Source: a virus. From it: a stretch of 64,000 bases of DNA. Both the position numbers and the translations under genes were made by a program. Location: positions 53,536 through 117,535 of IMG/VR virus record IMGVR_UViG_3300009110_000302. One strand, 5' to 3'. Each line of letters begins with the position of its first letter. The first letter of the stretch is position 1. The notes beneath the pieces were generated by a model. It searched no databases. It was not told where the DNA came from and saw nothing but the letters and a program-made list of their open reading frames with translations. Below, piece by piece: positions 16,886-53,538 of the stretch.

Positions 16886-17728
16886 ATGGTTATGTCAAAG
16901 AATCACCAAGCGTTAAACCCCCACTATGCAAGTTACAATTTTCTTCCTGTTATGAGTCGAGAGGAGGAGCTTGAGGTGGGTGCAAAACTATCTAGTAAAA
17001 ACGAAAGAGAGAGGAGAAAAGCTCAAGAAGAATTTGTTAACAGAAATTTAAGGCTGGTAATAAAAATTGCTTCTGGATACTCAAGGTGTGGTCTTGAGTT
17101 AGACGACATGGTTTGCGAGGGAAATATGGGATTAATGGAAGCGGCTAAAAGGTATGACCCATTAGTAGGGACGAAGTTCAGCACTTATGCCGCTTATTGG
17201 ATTCGTCAAAAAATAACCAGAGCATTATGTAATCATGGACGTTTAATTAGATTGCCTGTCCAGTTGGTTCAGTTACAACTAAAGGTTATCAAGTATGTAG
17301 ACTCTTATTCTCAAGAGAACAATAACGAGGCTACCCCCAAACAAATTGCTGAAGCGTTGGAGGAGCCTGTCCATTTAGTTGAGAAAGTATTAAATTCAAA
17401 ATACACTTTTACAAGCGTCGATTCTTTAATGTGCGCTGACGATGCTGCCTCAAGTTTTGGTAGCGTATTTGCTGATGAGAAAACTGATTCTCCATTAGAC
17501 TCTCTTGTTAAGAATAATGACAAAGAAGTAATAAATAAATTCTTGAATAAACTTAAAGACAGAGAAAAGTATATCATTGAGCATAGGTTCGGTCTTAATA
17601 ATAAAGATATAAAAACTTTAGAAAAAATAGGTGAAGAATTTAATGTCACTAGGGAGAGGATCAGACAGGTTGAGTTTGAGGCCATGAAGAAGTTACGTTT
17701 TGCAATACAGAAAGCGTATAAGGACTAA
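16886..17728 (+). CDS. RNA polymerase sigma-70 family factor
   Basis: This 280-residue group-2-like sigma factor has region 1.2 (PVMSREEELEVGAKLS), region 2 (FVNRNLRLVIKIASGYSR, EGNMGLMEAAKRYDP, TYAAYWIRQKITRAL), region 3 and a complete region 4 with a helix-turn-helix (EKIGEEFNVTRERIRQVEFEAMKKLR). It would redirect host RNA polymerase. Because the class A promoters have nearly consensus -35 and -10 boxes plus a fixed spacer motif, this factor is the natural candidate to read them. That link is inferred, not shown. tRNA-Leu lies directly downstream. Confidence 0.92.
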   Translation: MVMSKNHQALNPHYASYNFLPVMSREEELEVGAKLSSKNERERRKAQEEFVNRNLRLVIKIASGYSRCGLELDDMVCEGNMGLMEAAKRYDPLVGTKFSTYAAYWIRQKITRALCNHGRLIRLPVQLVQLQLKVIKYVDSYSQENNNEATPKQIAEALEEPVHLVEKVLNSKYTFTSVDSLMCADDAASSFGSVFADEKTDSPLDSLVKNNDKEVINKFLNKLKDREKYIIEHRFGLNNKDIKTLEKIGEEFNVTRERIRQVEFEAMKKLRFAIQKAYKD

Positions 17729-26933: not shown

Positions 26934-27125
26934 AGTTCTTTGAGAGATTGACAATTTAAGTTGCGGAAACGCGACAACAATTTAAGCTGACGACGGTTGG
27001 CTTAAGGGAATGGCTGAACAACCCTCCATCATAAGGGGTAAGGCATAGGGATACGTGTTAGAGTATAATCGTATGAGACACGTGTTTCTAGTAGACTGGT
27101 AAACTTGAACTGTATTGTGCACTGG
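26934..27125 (+). ncRNA. Structured leader or noncoding RNA
   Basis: Downstream of the class A promoter, GTTCTTTGAGAGATTGACAA resembles the boxA region of rRNA leaders. It is followed by GTTGCG-GAAA-CGCGAC (a GNRA tetraloop hairpin), TTAAGC/GCTTAA, CCCT/AGGGG and GATACG/CGTATG stems. I do not recognise tmRNA, RNase P or a known riboswitch. It may be a leader for the small basic gene or an RNA in its own right. Confidence 0.45.
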
Positions 27126-27130
27126 TCTTG

Positions 27131-27355
27131 ATGGTAATGCAGCAATCCATCTTCCCATTAATTTTGTGCGTGGTGCTGGGTTACAGGCCACGTAACAGGA
27201 AGAAACACAGGTTACCTCAACCGGAAGCGCGTAAGTATTCCTCGCGTCTGCAAAGGGAGAAGCAGCGGGTAACCAACGTGAGATCCCAAAATTTCCGTAG
27301 TCCAAAATCAAAGGGCTACGGTTTCAACAAGGTCGGGAAAAACAAACGCAGTTGA
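27131..27355 (+). CDS. Small basic protein (74 aa)
   Basis: A hydrophobic start (FPLILCVVLGY) is followed by an Arg/Lys-rich body (RPRNRKKHRLPQ, SPKSKGYGFNKVGKNKRS). ATG 27131 or 27137 may be used. It lies at the end of the structured transcript. Coding is plausible but unproved. Confidence 0.4.
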   Translation: MVMQQSIFPLILCVVLGYRPRNRKKHRLPQPEARKYSSRLQREKQRVTNVRSQNFRSPKSKGYGFNKVGKNKRS

Positions 27356-27422: not shown

Positions 27423-27461
27423 CACTTGGCACGAATCGTGCTGCCCGATTTCAACCAAGTG
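27423..27461 (+). repeat. 39-bp dyad element R1
   Basis: Starts CACTTGGCACGAATCG and ends CCAAGTG. First of eight 39-bp copies. It is followed at 27474 by TTATTCACA, a DnaA-box-like 9-mer. Confidence 0.85.
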
Positions 27462-27528
27462 TCAAGCGTAAAGTTATTCACACCTCAAAAAATTTCTTAA
27501 AATCAACGAATTTCACACCGGAGAAAGT

Positions 27529-27599
27529 GGGGGTAAACAAGAAATTTTCAGGCATGATACCTCACAAAAGCAGGGCTTTCTTTCAAAACAATTACCCCC
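27529..27599. other. Inverted repeat closing a 71-bp noncoding segment
   Basis: GGGGGTAA (27529-27536) is the complement of TTACCCCC (27592-27599). The stretch 27462-27692 has no gene; it also holds two direct CGCTCATT copies (27605 and 27644). Confidence 0.4.
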
Positions 27600-27692
27600 T
27601 TTGTCGCTCATTAATTGCCATAATTGATTGACAAACTATTTTGCCGCTCATTTGTGATCGACAAAAAAATGCATCTAATGTGCATTTAATGC

Positions 27693-27720
27693 TTGTCACA
27701 GGCTTAACTATGCTTATAAT
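27693..27720 (+). promoter_or_regulatory. Class A promoter of the DUF932 gene
   Basis: TTGTCA, 16 bp with AACT at 8-11, TATAAT. A 51-nt leader with AAAAAAGGAAC precedes ATG 27772. Confidence 0.78.
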
Positions 27721-27771
27721 GGTTATAACAGTTTGAGACATTAACACTAGAAAAAAGGAACTATATATATT

Positions 27772-28674
27772 ATGCCTATAGAAGCAAAACAACAGATTGA
27801 TGAGGGCTACGACTTCACCGCCAAACAGGTTGAAGTACCCCATCCAATCACCGGAAAAAAATCCGGTTATTACATGAACATCCGTGAAGACACGGGCGAC
27901 ATCATGGGGTGGACTACTGACCGTTACGGTCTGGTTAATCACCGTGACATAGTAGGGTTTGCAGACAATGCGTTTGCTGACCGTGGTATCGAGGTTAATC
28001 GTAAAGTTTACGTGACCGAAAACGGTGCGAAGTGCCGTGCGGTTTATGACCTTATCGGTTCGGAATATCAAGCGGAAGTTCCCCAAGTCGGTGACATTAT
28101 GGGCTATCGTTTGACTGCTCAAAACTCGCTTGACCGTAGTCTTCGGATGGCTTATTCGTTAGGCTTAAAGCGTCTGGCTTGTTTGAATGGCATGACCACA
28201 ACCGAGTCGGAAGTGGAAATGACAAAGAAACATTCTTTGAATGTTAACTTGAACGAGGTGCTTTCTCCAAAAGCCTTGGATACTGCTCTTGCCAAGATGA
28301 AGCAGAGCCTGACTGTTTACGGTCGGTTGTCGCAGTCGGAAGTTTCTCAAGAGCAAGGAATCATTATCCTTCAGAACCTAGCAAATGCCAAGGTGTTTTC
28401 TGAAAAGGTGCGTGAGTCTATCGCTCAAGTTTGGAACGGCCAACCAGAGGGACTTGGCAGAGGTGGAGATGCCGATAAGAGTCGGAACCTTTACAACCTT
28501 AACAATGCCGTCACGGAGCATTTGACCTATGAGGTTGCGGATACTCGTTTCGAGTATGCAAATCGTGTGACCTCTCAAGTCTTAAAGAGGTTCGACAAGG
28601 CGACTCGGAACCAAAAAGTTTTGGAGAAACTTTGGACTCCCGCCAAAAATGATCAAATAGTGATTACTGAGTAG
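27772..28674 (+). CDS. DUF932-family phage protein
   Basis: The 300-residue protein fits the DUF932 phage/plasmid family: GWTTDRYGLVNHRDIVGFADNAF near residue 50, a YRLTAQNSLDRSLRMAYSLGLKRLACLNGM core near 111-140, and helical C-terminal regions. The family is widespread on phages and plasmids and has no settled biochemical role. It has its own promoter and terminator. Confidence 0.8.
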   Translation: MPIEAKQQIDEGYDFTAKQVEVPHPITGKKSGYYMNIREDTGDIMGWTTDRYGLVNHRDIVGFADNAFADRGIEVNRKVYVTENGAKCRAVYDLIGSEYQAEVPQVGDIMGYRLTAQNSLDRSLRMAYSLGLKRLACLNGMTTTESEVEMTKKHSLNVNLNEVLSPKALDTALAKMKQSLTVYGRLSQSEVSQEQGIIILQNLANAKVFSEKVRESIAQVWNGQPEGLGRGGDADKSRNLYNLNNAVTEHLTYEVADTRFEYANRVTSQVLKRFDKATRNQKVLEKLWTPAKNDQIVITE

Positions 28675-28686
28675 GCTACCCAACCG

Positions 28687-28726
28687 ATCCCCTCGCTGCG
28701 TTAATCGTGGCGGGGGGATTTTTTTT
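28687..28726 (+). terminator. Rho-independent terminator
   Basis: ATCCCC and GGGGAT with inner CGC/GCG pairing, followed by eight T. Confidence 0.85.
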
Positions 28727-28796
28727 GCCCGTTTAAATAATAACTATTAAATAACGATTATTAAATAGACCCGAAAAAATAATAACACCAAATAAG

Positions 28797-28835
28797 CACT
28801 TGGCACGGATCTTGCAGCCTGATTTTTAACTAGTG
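28797..28835 (+). repeat. 39-bp dyad element R2
   Basis: Starts CACTTGGCACGGATC and ends AACTAGTG; the most diverged copy, but of the same length. It lies 29 bp upstream of a class A promoter. Confidence 0.78.
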
Positions 28836-28864
28836 GTCAAGCGAAAAAAAAAGAAAAAAAATGC

Positions 28865-28892
28865 TTGCATGAGTCTTAACCATCCCTATAAT
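28865..28892 (+). promoter_or_regulatory. Class A promoter, leaderless
   Basis: TTGCAT, 16 bp with AACC at 8-11, TATAAT; ATG 28900 is 7 nt past the -10. Confidence 0.8.
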
Positions 28893-28899
28893 TAAGAAC

Positions 28900-29079
28900 A
28901 TGAGCAAAACATACGGAACCTATCAAGCAAGAAACGCTGTCAAAGCAGCACAAGTCACCAACCATATCAAAGCACAGAAAAAGATTGGCGTAACTCACGA
29001 GGAAGCTAAGGCTGAAGCCTATCGGATCTTCAACATCAAGGCAGCATTACCAATCTTAACCCGTCACTTCTTACTTTAG
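28900..29079 (+). CDS. Small helical protein (59 aa)
   Basis: An Ala/Lys-rich helical product (ARNAVKAAQVTNHIKAQKKIG, then HEEAKAEAYRIFNIKAAL). Support comes from the promoter placed exactly for a leaderless message. Unknown. Confidence 0.6.
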   Translation: MSKTYGTYQARNAVKAAQVTNHIKAQKKIGVTHEEAKAEAYRIFNIKAALPILTRHFLL

Positions 29080-29082
29080 GGG

Positions 29083-29110
29083 TTGACACGAGGCTAACTT
29101 TCGCTATAAT
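29083..29110 (+). promoter_or_regulatory. Class A promoter, leaderless
   Basis: TTGACA, 16 bp with AACT at 8-11, TATAAT; ATG 29119 is 8 nt past the -10. Confidence 0.82.
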
Positions 29111-29118
29111 TAAGGAAG

Positions 29119-29310
29119 ATGAAAATTAAAGGAATCAGAAACGGTTCGTTATATTATAACGAAGGAACCCAACGAGTAGAACGTGTTCGTAGTAAAGCGA
29201 ATAGTCAATCAGTTTTCACCACTGTCCATAACAAAGCGTTGGCTGTGGTTCCGGCTAAATCTTTGAATTTGGCTAGTGGAGAACAGATTGCAAGCTACTT
29301 GCAATCATAA
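29119..29310 (+). CDS. Small basic protein (63 aa)
   Basis: A beta-rich start (KIKGIRNGSLYYNEGTQRVERV) and a SxHNKALAVVPAKSLNL segment. It has its own promoter and a strong terminator. No family recognised. Confidence 0.62.
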   Translation: MKIKGIRNGSLYYNEGTQRVERVRSKANSQSVFTTVHNKALAVVPAKSLNLASGEQIASYLQS

Positions 29311-29314
29311 ACAT

Positions 29315-29357
29315 AACCCTCTCGCCCTTTCTTTACTTTTGGGTGAGAGGGTTTTTA
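29315..29357 (+). terminator. Rho-independent terminator
   Basis: AACCCTCTC pairs with GAGAGGGTT, followed by TTTTA; it directly precedes the next promoter. Confidence 0.85.
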
Positions 29358-29358
29358 C

Positions 29359-29386
29359 TTGTTAAGAATATAACTATCATTATAAT
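29359..29386 (+). promoter_or_regulatory. Class A promoter, leaderless
   Basis: TTGTTA, 16 bp with AACT at 8-11, TATAAT; ATG 29394 is 7 nt past the -10. Confidence 0.78.
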
Positions 29387-29393
29387 TGGAACT

Positions 29394-29966
29394 ATGAAAG
29401 AAACACTTAAAGATTTAGGGAATACCGCTTTGGATATTCTGTTAACCCTTATTTTAACTTTGCTTGCCTTGCATATGCTTTTGTTTGCTGCTGTGTCAGT
29501 AGCATCAGCGCAAGAGCTAACGCCCGACCAAACAGTTGTCGCAAAGACTATTCTTGGCGAAGCGCGTGGAGAAGGTAAGGCGGGTATGTATGCCGTTGCT
29601 TGTGTCATAGCGCAACGAGCAATTCTGCGGAACAAAACTCCAAAAGAAGTTTGCAAACAGCCTTCGCAATTTTCTTTTTGGGTTAAAGATAAAAAAACTA
29701 CCCTTGACGACAGGAATAGAGCAACGGTTGAGCGGCTTATGAAGCACGATATCGAATCAGTGCGTTACGCTAAAGCTTTGGCTATTCATGTAATGAAAGT
29801 AGATCGTTCTTATACTGACCACGCAGACCACTATTGCGCGACAAGAGTTAGTCCTTACTGGGTAAGAGGGAGGACACCTGTAAGAATCATAGGCAATCAT
29901 AAATTCTTTAGAATTAACTCCAGAGTTTTTGGAATAACAAAATCTTCTGTCTTGACTCAACCTTAA
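29394..29966 (+). CDS. Cell-wall hydrolase, SleB-like (Hydrolase_2)
   Basis: After an N-terminal membrane or signal segment (about residues 14-38, ending ASAQE) comes the SleB/Hydrolase_2 domain. It has TILGEARGEGKAGMYAVACVIAQRA with the catalytic-type Glu, CKQPSQFSFW, and a C-terminal ADHYCATRVSPYW and GNHKFFR. Such enzymes cut peptidoglycan glycan strands. The hydrophobic start suggests export or a signal-anchor-release endolysin. Its promoter class is early-type, which is odd for a lysis enzyme; it may act in wall remodelling. Confidence 0.82.
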   Translation: MKETLKDLGNTALDILLTLILTLLALHMLLFAAVSVASAQELTPDQTVVAKTILGEARGEGKAGMYAVACVIAQRAILRNKTPKEVCKQPSQFSFWVKDKKTTLDDRNRATVERLMKHDIESVRYAKALAIHVMKVDRSYTDHADHYCATRVSPYWVRGRTPVRIIGNHKFFRINSRVFGITKSSVLTQP

Positions 29967-29979
29967 CCATCATTATAAT
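29952..29979 (+). promoter_or_regulatory. Class A promoter, leaderless
   Basis: TTGACT, 16 bp with AACC at 8-11, TATAAT. It starts inside the last codons of the hydrolase gene; ATG 29989 is 9 nt past the -10. Confidence 0.8.
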
Positions 29980-29988
29980 TAAGAAACA

Positions 29989-30318
29989 ATGAAGGCAATC
30001 ATAGAAATCGAATTAGGCAACTCATCATTTGGCAACAACGATGCTGAAAGACTATTTGAGATGCGAAACGTCATTGAAAGACTAATGGACAACGCTGACC
30101 GTATTATGGCAGCAGACGTTGGAGACTTCACAACCGCGCAAGACGCTAACGGTAACACGGTCGCTAGAATGGACATCGTAGAAGGTGGCAGGACACCAAA
30201 GATGTACGGTCTGGAAAATCAAGCACCTGATCAGCAACTGAACGTAGACCCCGCAGACAAGTATCAAGAGATGCGGAATGAAAACTGGGCAGACTCAAAC
30301 GTCAGCGACCCATACTAA
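29989..30318 (+). CDS. Acidic hypothetical protein (109 aa)
   Basis: An acidic protein with an N-terminal strand-helix unit (KAIIEIELGNSSFG, RLFEMRNVIERLMDNADRIM) and a Pro/Asp-rich tail. It is expressed from its own leaderless promoter. Unknown. Confidence 0.65.
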   Translation: MKAIIEIELGNSSFGNNDAERLFEMRNVIERLMDNADRIMAADVGDFTTAQDANGNTVARMDIVEGGRTPKMYGLENQAPDQQLNVDPADKYQEMRNENWADSNVSDPY

Positions 30319-30322
30319 AATT

Positions 30323-30535
30323 ATGAGCGACTATTGGACCGGACTTGTTAACTATAAACCAAAAAAGAAAATGACTGATAAAGAATCAAAGCAATTAGAT
30401 ATCTGTCTTGCGTTGTTGGCAATGGCATCCGCAAAGGGAGCGCACCCCACGGATATGCTTAACGCATTCACCTTTGATATGAATCTAATAAGGAACGGGG
30501 AAGATCCTACTGAAACTCAAAAACTAATTGAGTAA
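30323..30535 (+). CDS. Hypothetical protein (70 aa)
   Basis: ATG 30323 follows the previous stop by 4 nt. A Lys-rich start precedes a hydrophobic helix (QLDICLALLAMASAKG) that is too short and polar for a sure membrane span. Unknown. Confidence 0.55.
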   Translation: MSDYWTGLVNYKPKKKMTDKESKQLDICLALLAMASAKGAHPTDMLNAFTFDMNLIRNGEDPTETQKLIE

Positions 30536-30554
30536 TTTCTGATATAAAAACTTG

Positions 30555-30593
30555 CACTTTATGTAAATCGGGCCGCACGATTCGTGCCAAGTG
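30555..30593 (-). repeat. 39-bp dyad element R3 (inverted)
   Basis: In + orientation it ends GCACGATTCGTGCCAAGTG. It stands 36 bp upstream of a class B promoter, with TTATTCACA at 30616. Confidence 0.85.
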
Positions 30594-30629
30594 CAAGTAA
30601 AGTTTTCGAAAAAAGTTATTCACAATGCC

Positions 30630-30658
30630 TTGACAGGAGGGCGTTTCTGTGTTATATT
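30630..30658 (+). promoter_or_regulatory. Class B promoter, leaderless
   Basis: TTGACA, 17 bp containing GGCGTTT and ending TGTGT, TATATT; ATG 30666 is 7 nt past the -10. Confidence 0.8.
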
Positions 30659-30665
30659 TATTTCA

Positions 30666-30812
30666 ATGAAAGTGAGAAGGAAAAGAAAACGCAGAGCAAG
30701 AGCGAGAGTGAACCGCGAAGGCTTTATGAATAGCGCAACCCGTGAACATCGCGTGAAGAAGGGTAAAGGCTCTTTTAGGCGTAGAAAAAAACATCAAAAA
30801 AAATTCGATTAG
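30666..30812 (+). CDS. Small Arg/Lys-rich protein (48 aa)
   Basis: Nearly half the residues are Arg or Lys (KVRRKRKRRARARVNREG, FRRRKKHQKKFD). A nucleic-acid-binding role is likely. The gene forms a single-gene cassette with R3 and a class B promoter. Confidence 0.62.
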   Translation: MKVRRKRKRRARARVNREGFMNSATREHRVKKGKGSFRRRKKHQKKFD

Positions 30813-30815
30813 GGC

Positions 30816-30844
30816 TTGCATTGTCCTGCTCGACCTGTCATAAT
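30816..30844 (+). promoter_or_regulatory. Sigma-70-like promoter
   Basis: TTGCAT, 17 bp, CATAAT. It lacks the AACY element. A 23-nt leader precedes ATG 30868. Confidence 0.55.
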
Positions 30845-30867
30845 CCTATCCAGAAAGTAAATCAATT

Positions 30868-31308
30868 ATGTATAACAACCACACAAACACAAAACTAGAG
30901 TATCAAGACTTCAGCACTAAAATCATCGTTGCCATCACTGGCGCACCTGAAGATGTGGAAGCTGATTTCTGGGGATTCTTCAACACCAACGCCACCGATG
31001 CGGGATTGCATCATTTTGGCGAGGCGCGTATTCATTGGCTAACACCTACCACCGCGCAATTTTACACAACCCGTGAGCGTTTGCTTGCTGGTATGGAATT
31101 GCGAGCTTTGAACAAACTTCTAAACGAGTCTGCCGATGGTTACAAAGGCACAAAAGGCGGTGCGTTGGCAGATGCTAAACAAATGGCGCAAGAGTGGTTT
31201 GACTCGATGGAACGTGTCACGGACATCATCAAAAAGAATGTGCGAGAGACTACTTACGGCATGGGAACCATCTCGGCCGAAAAGCCTGACAGCGATTATA
31301 GTGCTTGA
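30868..31308 (+). CDS. Hypothetical protein (146 aa)
   Basis: A mixed alpha/beta protein (TKIIVAITGAPEDVEADFWGFF at the start, a long helical C-terminus). Its TGA lies in the -35 box of the next promoter. No family recognised. Confidence 0.65.
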   Translation: MYNNHTNTKLEYQDFSTKIIVAITGAPEDVEADFWGFFNTNATDAGLHHFGEARIHWLTPTTAQFYTTRERLLAGMELRALNKLLNESADGYKGTKGGALADAKQMAQEWFDSMERVTDIIKKNVRETTYGMGTISAEKPDSDYSA

Positions 31309-31332
31309 ATCAATCTTAACTATCTGTATAAT
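31305..31332 (+). promoter_or_regulatory. Class A promoter, leaderless
   Basis: TTGAAT, 16 bp with AACT at 8-11, TATAAT. The -35 contains the previous stop; ATG 31341 is 8 nt past the -10. Confidence 0.78.
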
Positions 31333-31340
31333 TAACAAAG

Positions 31341-32084
31341 ATGAACGACCTATTAAAATTTGGAGATCCGAACTCCAAGCTAAAGAAAATGATTCGGAAG
31401 CTTGGGCTTAAACTAAAAACCTTCACGCTTCCCGCTGGACACACTTGCCCCGGAGCAAAAGACTGTTTATCAAAAGCAGATCCTGAAACCGGAAAGATTC
31501 AAGACGGGCCAGATACGGAGTGGCGATGCTTTGCCGCTAGTGCAGAGGCAACGTATCCGTCATTGCGTAAAATGGTTTGGCATAACTTCGACTTGCTAAA
31601 GCAAGCTTTGAAATTAGACCAAGAGGCAGGATTTGAGAACTGCCCACACACTACCGATTTAATCAATCGGAGCTTGCCCAAAAAGTTTGACATCATGCGT
31701 GTCCACGTTGGCGGGGATTTCTTTTCAAAGCGTTACTTGCAAGCGTGGGTTGACGTTGCAAGGCAAAACCCTGACAAGGTTTTTTATGCCTACTCGAAAA
31801 GTCTTAATTTCTTTTTGGAATGGGCGTTGCCTTCTAACCTTGTCTTGACTGCCTCGCGTGGTGGCAAGCATGATGAATTGATTGACGTTGCCGGTTGGAA
31901 AGAAGCTGTTGTTGTTTACAGTGAGCAAGAAGCAATCGACAAAGGTTTAGAAATCGACCACGACGACACACACGCAGCGTTTGGAAAAGAAAACTTTGCG
32001 TTGTTAATTCACGGGACACAGCCAGCAGGGAGTATGGCAAGTAAGGCGTTGCAACTTCTTAAACGGGGAAAGGTTGCCGCGTGA
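31341..32084 (+). CDS. GP88-family phage protein
   Basis: The 247-residue protein has the GP88-type signature FTLPAGHTCPGAKDCLSKAD near residue 29, WRCFAASAEATYPSLRKMVWHNFDLL near 61-86, and VHVGGDFFSKRYLQAWVDVARQNPDKVFYAYSKS near 121. The Cys set may bind a metal or cluster. The family occurs across unrelated phages and its activity is not known. Confidence 0.8.
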   Translation: MNDLLKFGDPNSKLKKMIRKLGLKLKTFTLPAGHTCPGAKDCLSKADPETGKIQDGPDTEWRCFAASAEATYPSLRKMVWHNFDLLKQALKLDQEAGFENCPHTTDLINRSLPKKFDIMRVHVGGDFFSKRYLQAWVDVARQNPDKVFYAYSKSLNFFLEWALPSNLVLTASRGGKHDELIDVAGWKEAVVVYSEQEAIDKGLEIDHDDTHAAFGKENFALLIHGTQPAGSMASKALQLLKRGKVAA

Positions 32085-32199
32085 GCTTAGAAGTAATATT
32101 TATAATTGCCTTTTTAATATTTCTTTTCCAGCTACAAAAATGAAAATCCGAATAACAAACAAAGGCCCGCCCTAAAATTTTTCTTAAAAAAAGCTTGAC

Positions 32200-32238
32200 C
32201 ACTCGCCAAAAATCGGGCAGCACGATTCGTGCCAAGTG
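32200..32238 (-). repeat. 39-bp dyad element R4 (inverted)
   Basis: In + orientation it starts CACTCGCC and ends GATTCGTGCCAAGTG. The stretch 32085-32348 has no credible gene; this element is its main content. Confidence 0.82.
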
Positions 32239-32348
32239 CTCAAAGCTAGGTGGGACATTGGCTGTCCACCCACTTAAATTATTTTTCAGACCGCTATTTG
32301 AGCCCACAAAAACAGGGTTATTCTGCACCATTTTTTTTTGCGTATCAC

Positions 32349-32377
32349 TTGCATTATTCGTAAAAGTGGAGTATATT
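32349..32377 (+). promoter_or_regulatory. Class B-like promoter, leaderless
   Basis: TTGCAT, 17 bp, TATATT; ATG 32383 is only 5 nt past the -10. Confidence 0.65.
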
Positions 32378-32382
32378 AAGGT

Positions 32383-32661
32383 ATGTTAAACAAAGAACTA
32401 ACAGTAGAACAAGAAGCTCAACTCCTACTCAACCAAGAGATTGAGGTAACAAGCTCACGCATCATGCAGCTTTGGGGTAAGCGTGGAATCGTTGAGGCTG
32501 TCATGGCAGATGGTCGTACGTTAGACATTAAGCTAGCTGATGGCAAGAGCGTTTTCCTAGATGTCACCTTTGTGGGTGAAGTGCGGGAAGGCATAGCGTT
32601 TGCCAAGCAAGAACAGTCTCTTGGCCCAATCGCTAACAGCGTAGTGAAAAGCACTCTTTAG
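32383..32661 (+). CDS. Hypothetical protein (92 aa)
   Basis: A helix (LTVEQEAQLLLNQEIEV) is followed by a small beta-barrel-like region (GIVEAVMADGRTLDIKLADGKSVFLDVTFVGEV) reminiscent of SH3-type folds. Unknown function; own promoter. Confidence 0.62.
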   Translation: MLNKELTVEQEAQLLLNQEIEVTSSRIMQLWGKRGIVEAVMADGRTLDIKLADGKSVFLDVTFVGEVREGIAFAKQEQSLGPIANSVVKSTL

Positions 32662-32663
32662 GC

Positions 32664-32691
32664 TTTACAGGCATTTAACTATCCCTATAAT
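32664..32691 (+). promoter_or_regulatory. Class A promoter, leaderless
   Basis: TTTACA, 16 bp with AACT at 8-11, TATAAT; ATG 32699 is 7 nt past the -10. Confidence 0.75.
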
Positions 32692-32698
32692 TATAACA

Positions 32699-32959
32699 AT
32701 GATGAACGAACTAGACCAATTCAAAGAAGATACCGCGATGCGCCTGTTTGGGCGTAGTCGTCGCCTTGCCATCGCTGGCAACCAATGCGTTAAGTGTGGC
32801 GCACACGATCTTGAGTTCCGTGACGAACTCAGCAGCAAGGAGCATGGCATCTCCGGTTTCTGCCAGTCCTGTCAGGACGACATCTTTGGCCCCAGCGATG
32901 AGGAGAAAGAGGAGGTTCTTGGAATCACTCACCAAATGTTTGGAGGTGAAGAATGTTAG
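32699..32959 (+). CDS. Zinc-ribbon protein (86 aa)
   Basis: CVKCGAHDLEFRDELSSKEHG and CQSCQDDIF provide a CxxC...CxxC zinc ribbon with the FRDELS context common in small phage and plasmid proteins. It overlaps the next gene by 7 nt. A regulatory or adaptor role is possible. Confidence 0.68.
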   Translation: MMNELDQFKEDTAMRLFGRSRRLAIAGNQCVKCGAHDLEFRDELSSKEHGISGFCQSCQDDIFGPSDEEKEEVLGITHQMFGGEEC

Positions 32960-33510
32960 ACATCACTGACAAAAAAGCTGTAAGAAAAACTTTCCGCCGT
33001 GATGTTTACCGCAATCTTCATTTCAGAGATGAGGTTGTCTATTCTGTGCGTAAAGATGGTCTGGTTGAGGGTCACGCCCTTTGTTATGTAATGGATGGCG
33101 TTACCTTTCACGTTGGGCCTAAAGGCAACCAGCGTGTGCGTGATGAGGAGCGTAAAAACGTTCACGCTGTTATTCGCGGGCACGTTATCAATGCCGTTTG
33201 GTATGATGAGGATGAGATGGAATGGGCCAAGAGTGCTGCCCAACAATTGGCTGAGATAGAAATGTGTGGTGTGCCTGTGAGTCGTAACACGAATGTAAGT
33301 GACTTGGATGATCCGCGCGCGTGGGAGCCTATGTATAAATGGGTAGAGGTTAAGTATAACCCTTATAAGTTCAAGAGCTTTGTCAGCCCTGTTTATTTGC
33401 CATTTGGTTCCGAGGAGCCAGAATTCAGACCCATCTTTGAGGCTCGTAAGGTTGTTATTTACAGCGAGGACAACAAGAGCAAAGTCATGGCAATGGTTCC
33501 AATTATTTAA
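32953..33510 (+). CDS. Hypothetical protein (185 aa)
   Basis: A charged alpha/beta protein (FRRDVYRNLHFRDEVVYSV, HAVIRGHVINAVWYDEDEMEW). GGAGGTGAAGA precedes the ATG inside the upstream gene, suggesting coupled translation. No family recognised. Confidence 0.65.
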   Translation: MLDITDKKAVRKTFRRDVYRNLHFRDEVVYSVRKDGLVEGHALCYVMDGVTFHVGPKGNQRVRDEERKNVHAVIRGHVINAVWYDEDEMEWAKSAAQQLAEIEMCGVPVSRNTNVSDLDDPRAWEPMYKWVEVKYNPYKFKSFVSPVYLPFGSEEPEFRPIFEARKVVIYSEDNKSKVMAMVPII

Positions 33511-33551
33511 CTTGCCCTTCTTAACTAATTCAACGAAACCTTATTCTGTAT

Positions 33552-33800
33552 ATGAAAAATTCAAAGAAAACTGATAAAATCCTGAACGAACTCCGTCGTC
33601 AGGGATGCACGATTAAAGAGAAGAAAAACAATGTGATGATTATTCCTCCTGATTCGAATGTGGAAGCTTACACTGTCCATAGAAGTGACAGACACGTTGG
33701 AGCATTGATTGACCATTGCTTGAAAAGATATAGCCACCTTTTGAATTTCAAGAAGCTGGCAAAGTATCACAAGAGATTTCAAAACGGAGCGAAGGACTAA
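33552..33800 (+). CDS. Small HicA-like or dsRBD-fold protein (82 aa)
   Basis: The layout LRRQGCTIKEKKNNVMIIPP, then YTVHRSDRHVGALIDHCLKR, resembles HicA-type small proteins (helix, strands, a late VHR segment, helix), but the conserved G-S-H core is missing. No HicB partner is adjacent. Toxin function is therefore not claimed. Confidence 0.5.
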   Translation: MKNSKKTDKILNELRRQGCTIKEKKNNVMIIPPDSNVEAYTVHRSDRHVGALIDHCLKRYSHLLNFKKLAKYHKRFQNGAKD

Positions 33801-33805
33801 ACACG

Positions 33806-33831
33806 AGCGGCGCGAGCCGCTTTTTATTTTT
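33806..33831 (+). terminator. Rho-independent terminator
   Basis: AGCGGC and GCCGCT around GCGA, followed by TTTTATTTTTT. Confidence 0.88.
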
Positions 33832-33837
33832 TACTTG

Positions 33838-33876
33838 CACTTGGCACGAATCCGGCAGCACGATTCATGCCAAGTG
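33838..33876 (+). repeat. 39-bp dyad element R5
   Basis: The most symmetrical copy: CACTTGGCA / TGCCAAGTG outer arms and GAATC / GATTC inner arms around a 9-nt centre. TGTGAATAA, the reverse of a DnaA-box-like 9-mer, follows at 33881. Confidence 0.9.
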
Positions 33877-33916
33877 CTATTGTGAATAACTTTCTGAAAA
33901 AAATGCCTTCCAGCCC

Positions 33917-33945
33917 TTGACAAACGGTCGTTTGTGTGTTATATT
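33917..33945 (+). promoter_or_regulatory. Class B promoter, leaderless
   Basis: TTGACA, 17 bp with TCGTTTGTGTGT, TATATT; ATG 33954 is 8 nt past the -10. Confidence 0.82.
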
Positions 33946-33953
33946 TATACAAG

Positions 33954-34394
33954 ATGAACGAAGAAAGACTAAAACCACTTTTTGATTTAGACGGAACCCT
34001 AATCCGTGAGGATCGTGACAGCGATCGCCTTTTTGATTTCTTTCGCCCTCACGCTATCCTCGCACTAACAGAAGATGATTTAACTCCTCTCGGCGTACTC
34101 GTTAGAGACTCTGGAAAAGAATTTGATATCCTTACAGCGAGAGGCCATAAAAACGCAGAATTTGTTCGCATCGCTCTTACTGCTCTCGGATTCAATGTAA
34201 ACAAGATCGTCACCGTTGGAGTAGACATTAACTCTCCAGAAGACATGGATAACGTCAGCAGCAAAAGAGTAGCGGAAAGGAAAATCAGAATCGCCAAATT
34301 TGTTCAAAGAAAATTAGTTGACAATGACGAACGGAATCTGGTAGGATTGGGCGAGTTAGGAGAATTAGTAAGCCAAGATCAAAAGGAATTTTAA
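33954..34394 (+). CDS. HAD-superfamily hydrolase
   Basis: The 146-residue protein starts with a HAD motif I (FDLDGTLIRED, nucleophile Asp about residue 11), has EFDILTARGHK as motif II near 57-67, a Lys-rich SKRVAERKIR segment and VDNDERN as motif IV near 121. The small cap suggests a phosphatase or polynucleotide-phosphatase-like enzyme. Substrate unknown. It is expressed from an R5/class B cassette. Confidence 0.75.
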   Translation: MNEERLKPLFDLDGTLIREDRDSDRLFDFFRPHAILALTEDDLTPLGVLVRDSGKEFDILTARGHKNAEFVRIALTALGFNVNKIVTVGVDINSPEDMDNVSSKRVAERKIRIAKFVQRKLVDNDERNLVGLGELGELVSQDQKEF

Positions 34395-34396
34395 TT

Positions 34397-34630
34397 ATGA
34401 TAAAGAACGGAAAAGAACAAAACGTAGTACCCACCACACGCAAACAAAACCTTGCTGCTGCCAAGGCTTGTGACGACCACTATGAGGCTTGCAGCTTGTT
34501 TCGGGCGTTGCAGTACGCCAACAACATGGGAACAGGTGAGGATGACTTTGACGAATTGGCAGAGCATTTCATCAACAAGCAAGGGCTTACGGACTACTGC
34601 GAAAACGGATTTAAGAAAGTTAATCGGTAG
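34397..34630 (+). CDS. Hypothetical protein (77 aa)
   Basis: A helical protein with AAAKACDDHYEACSLFRALQYANNMG and an acidic middle. It starts 2 nt after the HAD gene and ends inside the operator palindrome of the next promoter. Unknown. Confidence 0.6.
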   Translation: MIKNGKEQNVVPTTRKQNLAAAKACDDHYEACSLFRALQYANNMGTGEDDFDELAEHFINKQGLTDYCENGFKKVNR

Positions 34631-34662
34631 GACTACGGATGTCCTACCCCCTGTGGTATACT
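34626..34662 (+). promoter_or_regulatory. Class C promoter with operator palindrome C1
   Basis: GGTAGGAC (34626) and GTCCTACC (to 34648) form a perfect 8-bp dyad around TACGGAT. Eight bp later comes TATACT preceded by TG-N; ATG 34669 is 6 nt past it. Confidence 0.8.
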
Positions 34663-34668
34663 ATACGT

Positions 34669-34839
34669 ATGAAAATGATTATGAAAGACATAGAACTAAA
34701 CGAAAACGGAAACGCCGTGGTAGACGGCACAGAGTATGAAGTGCGTGGATTTGACCACGAAGGACAAGAGGCGATCGTGATTCACGAATTGGATTTGATT
34801 TCTTACGACGAAGGCGATAACTGGGAGGAAATGGAATAG
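34669..34839 (+). CDS. Small acidic protein (56 aa)
   Basis: An acidic beta-rich product (IELNENGNAVVDGTEYEVRGF). Its start KMIMK is shared with the class C gene at 37313, and its DIELNENG with the minus-strand class C gene at 36656 (NIELNKEE). Unknown function. Confidence 0.65.
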   Translation: MKMIMKDIELNENGNAVVDGTEYEVRGFDHEGQEAIVIHELDLISYDEGDNWEEME

Positions 34840-34842
34840 ATT

Positions 34843-35106
34843 ATGACATTTAACGATTTGAAATTTAGCGACATATCTGAAACGCATGGAGAAGATGCAA
34901 TTCAGGCGTATGTGGAATTGCCGAATGGTTATGATGTTTCCGTGGTGAAGCATCGGTTTTCATACGGTGGCGAAAAAGGTATGTATGAGATTGGTTGCTT
35001 CTTTAACAATCACATGGTTGATCCTGCTGACTGGGGTGATACCGTCAAGGGTTGGTTGAATGAAAGTGATGTAGAAGATTGGATAAATGTGATTAAAAAA
35101 TTATGA
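34843..35106 (+). CDS. Hypothetical protein (87 aa)
   Basis: A mixed protein with YVELPNGYDVSVVKHRFSYGGEKGMYEIG, a beta-sheet pattern. It starts 3 nt after the class C gene and probably shares its message. Unknown. Confidence 0.6.
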   Translation: MTFNDLKFSDISETHGEDAIQAYVELPNGYDVSVVKHRFSYGGEKGMYEIGCFFNNHMVDPADWGDTVKGWLNESDVEDWINVIKKL

Positions 35107-35219
35107 GAGAATTAGATTCCATTATGTTTATTGTTTTCTTTTTAATGCTTTGCGCTATTGGCGTTTTTGTTATAGGCGTAGCGCATGACGCTTACATTGT
35201 TTGGTATATAAACAATTAA
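35103..35219 (+). CDS. Small membrane peptide (38 aa)
   Basis: ATGA overlap with the preceding gene. Residues 8-28 form a hydrophobic helix (MFIVFFLMLCAIGVFVIGV). A small membrane protein of unknown role. Confidence 0.5.
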   Translation: MRELDSIMFIVFFLMLCAIGVFVIGVAHDAYIVWYINN

Positions 35220-35220
35220 A

Positions 35221-35346
35221 ATGAATATTTCAACAAACAAAAAAACAGGCACGACTACAATCGTAATTTCTTCTAAATTAAAAGAGAAATTTTATAGTAT
35301 TCTTATAGCTTTTGCTTTGGGGTTAATTATCGGTTGGATATTTTAG
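35221..35346 (+). CDS. Small membrane peptide (41 aa)
   Basis: A polar, Thr/Lys-rich N-terminus and a C-terminal membrane helix (FYSILIAFALGLIIGWIF), i.e. tail-anchored. It follows the previous peptide by 1 nt and ends just before dyad element R6. Confidence 0.5.
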   Translation: MNISTNKKTGTTTIVISSKLKEKFYSILIAFALGLIIGWIF

Positions 35347-35351
35347 GCTTG

Positions 35352-35390
35352 CACTTGGCACGAATCCGGCTGCCCGATTTATGCCAAGTG
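35352..35390 (+). repeat. 39-bp dyad element R6
   Basis: CACTTGGCACGAATC ... ATGCCAAGTG, near-perfect dyad. A degenerate GAGAATAACTTT follows before the class B promoter. Confidence 0.88.
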
Positions 35391-35438
35391 GTCAAGAACT
35401 TCTTAACAGGGAGAGAATAACTTTCTTTATTTAAAGGG

Positions 35439-35467
35439 TTGACAAATGGGCGTTTGCGTGTTATATT
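35439..35467 (+). promoter_or_regulatory. Class B promoter, leaderless
   Basis: TTGACA, 17 bp with GGGCGTTTGCGTGT, TATATT; ATG 35474 is 6 nt past the -10. Confidence 0.83.
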
Positions 35468-35473
35468 TATACC

Positions 35474-35785
35474 ATGAAGATGATACTGAAAGCTGCCCGC
35501 AACGCAAGCCGCCGCACTCGTAACCGTGTCCGTGAGCACGGGCCCGTGTTCGAGGACGTTACCCGTCAACATACTGGGCGTAACTTGGGCAGGGGAGTGG
35601 TGGATGGTATGGACTGTGTATTGGTGCGTGCTGGTAGCTGGTTTGGCTGGCTACCCATAGATGAGATTGAGCGCACCACTGAGGGTGGGGTTAAGTTCTG
35701 CTGGCCATTAGATGAGGATGGTGACTTAGGTAGCGCAGGGTGGCTATGCTTAAACCATCAGGCATGGCTTAAAGAGCGTGAATAA
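35474..35785 (+). CDS. Hypothetical basic protein (103 aa)
   Basis: An Arg-rich N-terminus (AARNASRRTRNRVREHG) precedes a Trp/Gly-rich beta domain (VLVRAGSWFGWLPIDEIERT). GC content is higher than in flanking genes, hinting at separate origin. Unknown. Confidence 0.62.
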   Translation: MKMILKAARNASRRTRNRVREHGPVFEDVTRQHTGRNLGRGVVDGMDCVLVRAGSWFGWLPIDEIERTTEGGVKFCWPLDEDGDLGSAGWLCLNHQAWLKERE

Positions 35786-35793
35786 CTTACCCC

Positions 35794-35822
35794 TTGACAA
35801 GCACCCCTATGTGTGTTATATT
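35794..35822 (+). promoter_or_regulatory. Class B promoter, leaderless
   Basis: TTGACA, 17 bp ending GTGTGT, TATATT; ATG 35829 is 6 nt past the -10. No 39-bp element precedes this copy. Confidence 0.78.
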
Positions 35823-35828
35823 CTTACC

Positions 35829-36071
35829 ATGATGAATGACATGAGCAACACCACCAACCACGACGCGCGTATCTCCTGCGAGGAGGCCTTCACTGAGGAC
35901 ATGGGCCCTGCCCATTGGGCTAATGAACCTGAGCAGCCCACCCACAAGGAGGTAGCTGGTGTGTGTGAGGATGCCCCTTGCTGTGGGTGCTGTGGTGACA
36001 GCATGGACGATGGCTATGGCACGTATGCTGATGATGCGTGGCATGATGCCAACGAGTACCCTGACTGGTAG
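35829..36071 (+). CDS. Acidic Cys-rich protein (80 aa)
   Basis: A very acidic product with a dense Cys cluster (CEDAPCCGCCGDSMDDG near residue 46) that may bind metal. It is GC-richer than its neighbours. Unknown function. Confidence 0.6.
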   Translation: MMNDMSNTTNHDARISCEEAFTEDMGPAHWANEPEQPTHKEVAGVCEDAPCCGCCGDSMDDGYGTYADDAWHDANEYPDW

Positions 36072-36076
36072 GGTAG

Positions 36077-36115
36077 CACTTGGCACGAATCGTGCAGCCA
36101 GATCGGGGCCAAGTG
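36077..36115 (+). repeat. 39-bp dyad element R7
   Basis: CACTTGGCACGAATC ... GGGGCCAAGTG. It lies between the last + strand gene and the minus-strand island. Confidence 0.86.
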
Positions 36116-36130
36116 GTCAAGAACTTTCTT

Positions 36131-36406
36131 TTATTCTTTCTCGTCTTCCCAGTAGTAGCCTTCCGGTGGCATGATCTCGTTAAGGGTTGTACCTGTTGCC
36201 TTGCTCACTATGTATGGCTTAAGCTCTGCCATGTCTACCATACCCCATTCTTTAGCGAAGCCCATTACATAGCCGAAGCTCAAGCCGTAGCTGTCTTCTT
36301 CTTCTAGGTAATACTCCCAACCATTACGCAGGATGATGTGTTGAGCCACAGCGAAAGGCTCTTTCGTGTCTTCATTGTTCGAGTTGATGATATTTCTTGT
36401 TTTCAT
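36131..36406 (-). CDS. Hypothetical protein, minus strand (91 aa)
   Basis: One of three minus-strand genes in a rightward region. It is acidic and Tyr/Trp-rich (WEYYLEEEDSYGLSFGYVMGF). It reads from the minus strand 7 nt after the class C gene at 36656 and is probably in its operon. Unknown. Confidence 0.6.
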   Translation of the reverse strand: MKTRNIINSNNEDTKEPFAVAQHIILRNGWEYYLEEEDSYGLSFGYVMGFAKEWGMVDMAELKPYIVSKATGTTLNEIMPPEGYYWEDEKE

Positions 36407-36413
36407 AATTCAA

Positions 36414-36656
36414 TTACCTTTCAACACCAAGCTCTTTGTGGAGCTTGTTAATCTTATTAGTAGTGTGATTCCAAATCACTTTCATATCATTGGTGCGGTA
36501 AATCGCAGCACTACCAACACCGCCAAAGTGTTTACCATGAATTCTGACTTCAACGTCATTAACTTCAATTTGTGTCACAACGTCAAAGCGCGTGATGTTC
36601 TCAGCAATAAATTCTTGCTCTTCTTTATTTAGTTCTATGTTTTTCATATTCTTCAT
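36414..36656 (-). CDS. Hypothetical protein under class C control, minus strand (80 aa)
   Basis: The start at 36656 is set by the class C promoter 6 nt upstream. The product begins with a MKNMKNIELN segment like the C1 gene, followed by an alpha/beta domain (VTQIEVNDVEVRIHGKHFGG). Unknown. Confidence 0.62.
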   Translation of the reverse strand: MKNMKNIELNKEEQEFIAENITRFDVVTQIEVNDVEVRIHGKHFGGVGSAAIYRTNDMKVIWNHTTNKINKLHKELGVER

Positions 36657-36662
36657 GCGTCT

Positions 36663-36699
36663 AGTATACCATACAGGGTGGGACATCCGTAGTCCTACC
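36663..36699 (-). promoter_or_regulatory. Class C promoter with operator palindrome C2
   Basis: On the minus strand: GGTAGGAC-loop-GTCCCACC dyad, 8 bp, TGGTATACT, 6 bp, start codon. Same spacing as C1. Confidence 0.8.
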
Positions 36700-36895
36700 A
36701 GTTAATTTCTTTCACTCGAATGCTGCCGAGTCGGGCAACATCAGGAAACATCTTTGCGGCTACTCTGTGAGCGTGTGCCATATCAAATGCTTGAATAGTT
36801 TCTGTTTGCTCGCAAGCGGGACGGCTAGGGTCAACTTGCGTTACTAGGGTTAGTTGGAATAGTTTGTCTTTTATCATGTCTGTTTCAATCATCAT
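36695..36895 (-). CDS. Hypothetical protein under class C control, minus strand (66 aa)
   Basis: Start at 36895, 6 nt from the class C -10. The segment IQAFDMAHAHRVAAKMFPD resembles IKAMDEAHARRIIANNG of the + strand gene at 37098, so the two are paralogues. Its 3' end overlaps operator C2. Confidence 0.62.
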   Translation of the reverse strand: MMIETDMIKDKLFQLTLVTQVDPSRPACEQTETIQAFDMAHAHRVAAKMFPDVARLGSIRVKEINW

Positions 36896-36901
36896 GCGTA
36901 T

Positions 36902-36938
36902 AGTATAGCACATGAGGTGGGACATCCGTAGTCCTACC
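36902..36938 (-). promoter_or_regulatory. Class C promoter with operator palindrome C3
   Basis: Minus strand: GGTAGGAC-loop-GTCCCACC, 8 bp, TGCTATACT, 6 bp, start codon. Confidence 0.8.
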
Positions 36939-36968
36939 AAAAAGAAAGTTAGATTTTTTTTACTTGAG

Positions 36969-37007
36969 CACTTGGCACGAATCGTGCCGCACGATCTATG
37001 CCAAGTG
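36969..37007 (+). repeat. 39-bp dyad element R8
   Basis: CACTTGGCACGAATCG ... TATGCCAAGTG. TGTGAATAA follows at 37012, then a class B promoter. Confidence 0.88.
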
Positions 37008-37038
37008 CAATTGTGAATAACTTTATGCAGAAACACCC

Positions 37039-37067
37039 TTGACAAAGGGCGATTTATGTGGTATACT
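37039..37067 (+). promoter_or_regulatory. Class B promoter
   Basis: TTGACA, 17 bp, TG-G-TATACT. Here the first suitable ATG (37098) is 30 nt downstream, so this message has a leader. Confidence 0.72.
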
Positions 37068-37269: not shown

Positions 37270-37306
37270 GGTGGGACAGCGGATGTCTCACCCCCTGTGC
37301 TATACT
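37270..37306 (+). promoter_or_regulatory. Class C promoter with operator palindrome C4
   Basis: GGTGGGAC-loop-GTCTCACC, 8 bp, TGCTATACT, 6 bp, ATG 37313. Confidence 0.8.
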
Positions 37307-42613: not shown

Positions 42614-42961
42614 TTACTTACCTCTATATTGAGCTTTACGGCTTCTTTCAGTTTTCCTCCACCCACATTCATGATATAAAAATCTACTTATAGTATTAGC
42701 AAATTTATATATTTCTTTTTCTGGCTTGTCCCAAAAGAAAGCATGAGCAAATTCATGGATGCACGTATTAAGTTCTGTTTGCTTGGTATTGTAAGGATTT
42801 ATACAGATTTTAGGATGTTTCTCGGTAGGATCTTCGCAAATCCCATCACATTTTTCCCCATAAAGCCTTTTATCTGGTTTTCTAAAAACAACCTCGTATT
42901 CCACCCCTTTACAGTTCCTAAACACGAAATTGCCATTTCTCGCCTTAGTCCGTCTGCGCAT
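42614..42961 (-). CDS. HExxH zinc-metalloprotease-like protein, minus strand
   Basis: LNTCIHEFAHAFFWDKPEKEIYKFA carries an HExxH zincin motif near residue 69. The basic N-terminus, ICEDPTEKHPKICINPYN and the short length suit a minimal SprT- or Wss1-like protease fold. The late-type box at 42969 on the same strand supports expression. Substrate unknown. Confidence 0.68.
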   Translation of the reverse strand: MRRRTKARNGNFVFRNCKGVEYEVVFRKPDKRLYGEKCDGICEDPTEKHPKICINPYNTKQTELNTCIHEFAHAFFWDKPEKEIYKFANTISRFLYHECGWRKTERSRKAQYRGK

Positions 42962-43423: not shown

Positions 43424-44206
43424 ATGCCTCGCAAGAATGCAAAAGTTCAAAAAAATCCACCAAAAAAAAGAGCAGCTAATAAAAAGATAGCGAAAAAAAA
43501 ACGCGTGTCTACTCCAAAAAAGCGCGTAAAGAAGTTGAAGTTCGAAGACTGCATCCAAGAAATCGATGTAGAGATTTGCAAGAGAAAAAATAAATGGAAT
43601 TTAACCGCCTTAGCTTGGATGGATTTTGATGACGTATCCCAAATTTTAAGAATCCATATATTTAAAAAATGGCACCTGTTTGACCAAACAAAAAAACTAG
43701 TCCCTTGGATTAATAGAATAATATCCAACCAAATAAAAAACTTAATAAGAAATCATTATGGTAACTACGTAAGGCCTTGCGTCAAATGCGCTGCGGCAGA
43801 AGGAGAAGATTTATGCGTCATATATGGTAAACAGTGCGCTGATTGTCCCTTGTTTAAAAATTGGTATAAAAACAAAAAAAGCGCATATGATACTAAACTA
43901 CCCATAGCTTTAGAAAACCACTCTCAAGAAGTGTTTTCTGTACAGAACCAAGACTCTTTAGATATGGACGTAGCGTCTCAAAAGCTACATGACAGAATGC
44001 AAAAAATGTTGAAAGTTAATGAATGGTTAGTTTATAAATATTTATATATAGACCACATGTCAGAAGAACAAGCAGCCAAAAAAATGGGATATAAAACTAC
44101 GGAAAAAAATAGAAGCCCCGGCTACAAACAAATAAAAAATTTAAAAAAATCTATAATAGCTAAAGTTAAAAAATGCTTATTGAATGACGAAATAGATATA
44201 TTTTAA
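43424..44206 (+). CDS. Divergent sigma factor (likely late)
   Basis: After a Lys-rich start the segment DFDDVSQILRIHIFKKWHLFDQTKKLVPWINRIISNQIKNLIRNHYG (near residue 63-110) is a sigma region 2 pattern. EEQAAKKMGYKT with a following basic helix resembles region 4. Between them are six Cys (CVKCAAAEGEDLCVIYGKQC, then CADC) that could bind zinc. Its place at the head of the packaging genes and the GTGTAA promoter family make it a candidate late sigma factor. Confidence 0.65.
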   Translation: MPRKNAKVQKNPPKKRAANKKIAKKKRVSTPKKRVKKLKFEDCIQEIDVEICKRKNKWNLTALAWMDFDDVSQILRIHIFKKWHLFDQTKKLVPWINRIISNQIKNLIRNHYGNYVRPCVKCAAAEGEDLCVIYGKQCADCPLFKNWYKNKKSAYDTKLPIALENHSQEVFSVQNQDSLDMDVASQKLHDRMQKMLKVNEWLVYKYLYIDHMSEEQAAKKMGYKTTEKNRSPGYKQIKNLKKSIIAKVKKCLLNDEIDIF

Positions 44207-53516: not shown

Positions 53517-53538
53517 AAATCATTTCTTATCGTTTCCG

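Follow-up and report, generated by a model that had tools for sequence, protein, structure and literature searches.

Dispersed 33-bp palindromes as putative operators of host-type promoters, bordering reshuffled gene cassettes in a family of uncultured phages

The last 64,000 nucleotides (positions 53,536 to 117,535; hereafter the window) of the 117.5-kb uncultured virus record IMGVR_UViG_3300009110_000302 contain eight dispersed palindromic elements, or dyads, which belong to a family of 33-bp sites found in about ten phages. We consider it reasonably probable that these elements act as putative operators for one regulator, probably encoded by the phage itself, which would control host-type early promoters, and that each site forms the border of a transferable gene cassette. 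This reading builds on a fixed site geometry, intergenic placement, a promoter on one side only, a reordering of the cassettes between phages and, in a close relative, a different dyad standing before several of the same genes.

The eight elements had been noticed in an earlier reading of the letters alone (the sequence-only reading), and all of them were recovered by a direct sequence check and by a weight-matrix scan of the 64 kb, which found no ninth site at a score above 8. Each is 39 bp long, and they lie at 27423-27461 (with its 33-bp core at 27426-27458), 28797-28835, 30555-30593, 32200-32238, 33838-33876, 35352-35390, 36077-36115 and 36969-37007. A 22-base half of the element, CACTTGGCACGRATCNKGCNGC, occurs eight times in the 117.5-kb record, compared with no occurrence of a reversed-pattern control. 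The arms turned out to be less regular than first described: the outer pair CACTTGGCA/TGCCAAGTG exists but is intact in only three of the eight copies (33838, 35352 and 36969), and the inner arm GAATC is present in seven copies, with GATTC opposite it in just one. Counted from the strong arm, bases 1-27 are nearly invariant among the eight and bases 28-35 vary, and palindromic matches range from 11 out of 19 in copy 28797 to 16 out of 19 in copies 33838 and 35352. The window copies are thus palindromes, mostly with one arm degraded, so that the 'inverted' orientation ascribed to copies 30555 and 32200, in which the strong arm does lie on the minus strand (it is on the plus strand in the other six), says only which arm is the weaker. 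They are also degraded members of their family, as seven fit the 33-bp pattern on the plus strand with one to five mismatches and the eighth, copy 30555, has one damaged arm. Comparison between phages indicates that the conserved unit is the inner 33 bp, and that the outer CAC/GTG is a local extension in the window phage.

The core motif, the 33-bp palindrome TTGGCACG-N6-GCNGC-N6-CGTGCCAA, was derived by eye from three element families in the early regions of terminase relatives (13 stretches out of 11 records), in which symmetric dispersed elements occur in G013, G021/G029, G023, G027 and G034/G035, and repeated promoters in G008/G009. Scanning 2.9 million viral contigs, we found 18 further contigs that carry the core, each with 2-15 copies at no more than three mismatches. 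After near-identical contigs were merged by matching element spacing, not by alignment, these represent about nine distinct phages, or about ten with the window, and they form two groups with few genes in common: group A (the window, G048/G062, G057, G027/G051 and G034/G035) and group B (G049, G050, G052, G053 and G060). Leaving the gap between half-sites free, at 20-60 bp overall, gave 83 TTGGCA..TGCCAA pairs in the ten phages, of which 77 measured exactly 33 bp, and one block shuffle yielded no pair, which implies that the spacing was not produced by the search pattern. At the fixed columns the base is kept in 128-143 of 143 copies, a set chosen at no more than two mismatches with near-identical contigs included. 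The variable positions are more alike within a phage (identity 0.74) than between phages (0.53, with label shuffles reaching at most 0.583), indicating that copies spread from each other or are homogenised inside a genome. The 142-kb record G047 (IMGVR_UViG_3300009104_002192) is 100% identical to the window over 8,502 and 14,543 bases of the element region, which makes it the same virus and no independent relative; its eight elements are confined to 9.6 kb of the 142 kb.

Beyond these viral contigs, the exact 33-bp motif was found in none of 1185 bacterial genomes (398, 395 and 392 sampled from three phyla) and in none of 16 in another sample. A pattern with 17 specified bases, tried as a bacterial motif, gave 26 single matches in 257 billion bases against some 30 expected by chance (a hand estimate), and was rejected. 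A 33-base query run against 50,697 records of GenBank phages matched 21, and among the matches listed all had E values of at least 1 with partial cover; the 10.5-kb element region had no near match among these phages. A search of open-licence papers, judged by their listings, found no description of the motif, which is not proof of absence.

To place the elements relative to genes, we used a list compiled at no more than four mismatches, one doubtful copy included (G050, 16244). None of its 96 copies in ten phages overlaps a codon-modelled gene by any base; 87 lie between tandem genes, four between convergent and three between divergent genes, and two have no gene on one side. Promoters were scored for tandem copies only. 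Of 85 such copies, 57 have a strict sigma70-type promoter (TTGACH-N16..18-YANNNT) no more than 140 nt downstream, compared with 0-2 in ten dinucleotide shuffles, and in the other placements it was close to absent (upstream 1/61, downstream antisense 1/85, upstream antisense 0/61). This strict test supersedes a looser, uncontrolled low-bar score that had credited 86 of 87 tandem copies with a promoter. The distances from the end of the dyad to the strict promoter (29-33, 38-43, 50-51, 59, 63, 69-70, 90-91 and 105 bp, and one at 11) look like steps of one helical turn, and phasing is suggestive. In the window, all on the plus strand, TTGACA-N17-TATATT follows the third, fifth and sixth copies at 30630-30658, 33917-33945 and 35439-35467, and TTGACA-N17-TATACT follows the eighth at 37039-37067. 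The sigma70-like promoters after the first copy (TTGTCA-N16-TATAAT, 27693-27720, 234 bp from the core end) and the second (TTGCAT-N16-TATAAT, 28865-28892) are consensus matches only, and the second copy has another candidate, TTGACA..TATAAT, which scores higher and lies 250 bp past the core. The fourth copy is followed by a sigma70-like TTGCAT-N17-TATATT at 32349-32377.

A protein bound at these sites might instead serve as a roadblock or insulator, halting read-through from the upstream cassette in the manner of a stoperator without acting on the downstream promoter. The predominance of tandem contexts fits such a role, as does a separate hairpin-plus-T-run ahead of 16 of the 87 tandem dyads (0-2 in five shuffles). 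However, the element is tied to the promoter downstream of it, its homology is shared with the downstream side, and the promoter distances look phased; moreover, window copy 36969 sits between divergent genes, where no read-through would be expected. We consider the roadblock rather improbable.

Some relatives carry other dyads. In G013, whose terminase is 75% identical to that of the window, the early region holds eight copies of a different palindrome, CGGGACCGGTCCCG. For five of them, preceding genes 6, 7, 16, 20 and 23, the first downstream gene has a best-hit homologue that likewise comes first behind a TTGGCACG dyad, in G047, G051 or G034; two of the other three have no homologue there, and one differs. 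A third dyad is present in seven copies in G023, and the types distinguished are TTGGCACG, CGGGACCGGTCCCG and GGCGCGAGACAATC. Dyad positions are thus kept as their sequence changes wholesale, as expected if a site follows its binding protein. The early region of G021 and G029 (L118 and L125) contains another dispersed repeat family, TTCAGGGTCRAA.

The repeats of G008/G009 (stretches L126, L127, L044 and L045) are of another kind: 27 distinct promoters with the half-site TTGGCAYR-N4-YTGCT, in which GG and GC are 10 nt apart. Sigma54 promoters have the -24/-12 consensus TGGCAC-N5-TTGC, with transcription starting about 12 nt downstream. The G008/G009 promoters match this consensus closely, and in 8 of the 27 the called start codon stands at a distance from the first T (27-29 nt) that would suit a sigma54 transcription start and suggests leaderless mRNAs. 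The half-site TTGGCACG-N6-GCW has the same spacing, and could therefore itself be a sigma54 promoter, with the dyad as two facing copies capturing sigma54 RNA polymerase. Yet the element is palindromic, facing promoters would be odd for transcription, and TTGACH promoters of the sigma70 type follow on one side. The TT before GC is not conserved in the dyads and mostly missing, the base next to GC on that side being T in 52 of 143 copies. Five of six records searched gave no sigma54-activator match, and the single match over the cut-off (G051, E 2e-4) is in a protein read as RuvB-like. We regard this possibility as unlikely.

Whether the dyads work as DNA sites or as RNA structures can be judged from their variable bases. 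At the variable positions (six per arm), the two arms pair less than arms swapped within the same phage (272 of 582 pairs, compared with 302.9, sd 7.3), and smaller tests of arm pairing gave p values of 0.89 (L123) and 0.80 (window). Pairing below chance points to a protein site of fixed geometry and not to a stem-loop, and a dimeric DNA-binding protein would be expected to leave just such a trace, unvarying symmetric contacts separated by free bases. Together with the fixed 33-bp spacing, this upholds the view of the sequence-only reading that the elements are not a product of chance but a protein-binding type of site.

That reading had also named the promoter early stem-loop (PeSL) cassettes of T4-like phages, reportedly composites of promoter and terminator, as the nearest parallel, and the layout does agree: the elements are dispersed and promoter-adjacent, lie in a hypervariable region and stand at cassette borders. 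A PeSL-type stem-loop would combine a terminator with an early promoter and promote recombination. Five of the eight window copies do fold better as RNA than their shuffles (z below -2.5, from -2.67 to -5.57). The stem-loop terminator itself is the part of the parallel that did not hold, as folding is unremarkable in the other three copies (28797, z +0.61; 30555, z -0.24; 32200, z -1.30), a T-rich stretch follows only 18 of 87 tandem dyads, and the variable positions avoid pairing. On these three grounds a hairpin or terminator was rejected as the main function, and a PeSL-type element seems to us quite unlikely.

The copies alternate with cassettes of small genes, as described earlier, and these are reordered between relatives. 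Gene adjacency is kept in another phage for 32 of 86 pairs across an element, compared with 132 of 182 without one, and for 28 of 48 pairs across element-free gaps of at least 80 bp (elements against such gaps, with labels permuted within phages, p 0.036); the comparisons run in both directions and lack independence. Group A by itself offers too few cases (0/9 across elements, compared with 1/5). Of 166 DNA homology blocks between group B phages (at least 250 bp and at least 70% identity), 34 start no further than 25 bp from a dyad centre, compared with a mean of 7.8 and a maximum of 24 in 2000 draws of random intergenic positions, and only 5 end at a dyad, with 7.4 expected. Gene blocks are thus indeed rearranged with borders at the element, but on one side of it, implying that the unit consists of dyad, promoter and genes, with the dyad as the upstream border. 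Some of the excess of block starts could come from DNA diverging faster on the upstream side of the dyad, and cassettes also have breakpoints inside them. Between copies 36077 and 36969, which form its left and right borders, lies a block of three small minus-strand genes (36131-36913); G034 has its homologue of 36131-36406 on the plus strand, directly after a dyad. Pfam matches in the cassette region are GP88 and Phage_L5_gp82 (mycobacteriophage L5 gene 82), at 31341-32084 and 32953-33510.

This reordering, the broken adjacency at elements and the one gene inverted relative to G034 would also suit the recombinase core site proposed in the sequence-only reading, which we nevertheless think very unlikely, since the centre base and the flanking N6 differ among copies and leave no identical crossover centre, homology blocks start but do not end at the elements, and neither Phage_integrase (PF00589) nor Resolvase (PF00239) was detected in six records, three of them 142-162 kb long, which may be incomplete (controls were positive in 14/14 and 10/14 genomes, respectively), even if an enzyme of another type is conceivable.

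Taking these observations together, we propose that one dimeric, sequence-specific and probably phage-encoded protein binds all of the dispersed sites, contacting symmetric bases at fixed spacing, TTGGCACG and GC, in both halves. Bound upstream of host-type (sigma70) promoters that are presumably early, it would set their activity jointly, probably by contacting RNA polymerase in helical phase or by looping the DNA between sites; we slightly prefer activation over repression. The site, its promoter and one to several small genes would make up a transferable cassette with the site as its upstream border, and ordinary homologous recombination would shuffle such cassettes while they stay under the same control.

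The virus encodes RIIA, RIIB, a large terminase, PhoH, ClpP, DNA ligase, ribonucleotide reductase and a RecA-family protein; its portal match is weak, and its terminase is 22.6-26.4% identical to those of named phages among the matches listed (20 of 65). Three sigma70-family factors are phage-encoded, two in the window (16886-17728 and 43424-44206) and one in L133 (13229-13837), and homologues of the factor at 43424 occur in 11 of the 13 other contigs that were compared. IrrE/ImmA-type peptidases can act on phage repressors, and a 96-residue protein at 42614-42904 on the minus strand comes close to the cut-off for Peptidase_M78 (IrrE N-terminal-like, IrrE/ImmA-type; 21.9 bits, cut-off 22), so that a repressor could still be present. 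Two sub-threshold HTH_3 matches were rejected as regulators: the protein in G053 is read as HNH-endonuclease-like, and that in G034 is a sigma factor homologous to the window's. That the motif was not found in the sampled bacterial genomes favours a phage protein, although the host may lie outside those samples.

Several observations weigh against the operator reading. HTH_3 gave no match over the cut-off in six records, scans for protein families in about 64 of G047's 172 called proteins returned no clear repressor, and the binder may be a host protein. A cruder ORF caller, which over-called ORFs, had 63 of 101 copies overlapping some ORF, so that the intergenic claim rests on the coding model. 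The 57 strict promoters are not independent, many being copies of each other, and only three of the six tandem window copies pass the strict test; copy 36077 sits between convergent genes, and further promoter-like repeats lie away from dyads at 29077, 29949, 31302 and 32661. The phasing is weak after related promoters are pooled: for 25 sequence clusters, scored with a looser promoter matrix, the Rayleigh test gives R=0.42 and p 0.012 at a period of 10, p 0.10 at 10.5, and p 0.048 once periods of 9.5-11.5 are searched. Finally, the early stretches of G028 and G018 contain no repeat family at all.

Other repeats and RNAs accompany the dyads. A second dyad of 23 bp, GGTRGGAC-N7-GTCCYACC, stands at the expected -35 position and is separated by a few bases from an extended -10 downstream, for example TGTGGTATACTA. 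Its window copies are at 34626-34648 (plus strand), 36677-36699 and 36916-36938 (both minus strand), with degenerate ones at 32249-32271 and 37270-37292. Counted over the group A phages and G013 it has 21 sites, or 17 when near-identical contigs are set aside, and none was found in the group B or G008/G009 contigs searched. The DnaA-box-like TTATTCACA, on either strand, lies 4-22 bp past four of the 33-bp dyads (27474-27482, 30616-30624, 33881-33889 and 37012-37020), and AGTTATTCAC is repeated too in L084, L118, L119, L122 and L125. Just ahead of the first dyad, at 26983-27161, is a manA RNA (RF01745, 71.9 bits); at gathering thresholds, Rfam found nothing in the window beyond this one and one tRNA.

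If the operator reading is right, these phages offer a testable example of hypervariable, reshuffled small genes under common control, each cassette bringing its own promoter and the same site, and the sharp 33-bp motif could be used directly as bait for a new DNA-binding protein of uncultured marine phages. Several of the genes stand behind another type of site in a close relative, and such a swap could limit genetic exchange between phages or provide immunity among them. A bolder and rather doubtful extension is a switch of the whole code between close relatives of this marine phage family: a single trans-acting factor would set the specificity and change in concert with all its dispersed sites, about 5-15 in number, so that shuffled cassettes could be read only within the same specificity. 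Such a system would act at once as a barrier between gene pools and as immunity, and an enzyme of a kind not yet described might move the cassettes at the sites.

Among known systems, class I activator sites such as those of CRP are palindromes that precede sigma70 promoters at distances differing by about one helical turn. The elements share this placement and may share the distance steps, and differ in site length, in sequence and in their phage setting. With the PeSL cassettes they have in common multiple similar copies per genome beside early promoters (the earliness being presumed here), a hypervariable region and shuffled cassettes; unlike those, they are palindromes of a protein type in which pairing is avoided at the variable bases, and such terminators as were found stand apart from them. 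The stoperators of cluster A mycobacteriophages such as L5 and Bxb1 are 13-bp asymmetric sites bound by a monomeric repressor and lying mainly in one orientation (PMC6550527). The likeness is in the many dispersed cognate sites per genome and in a site sequence that differs between phage groups, and the difference is that the sites described here are symmetric, 33 bp long and tied to promoters, with no repressor gene found in the proteins scanned. The element thus resembles PeSL cassettes in layout and stoperators in logic, and fails a defining feature of each.

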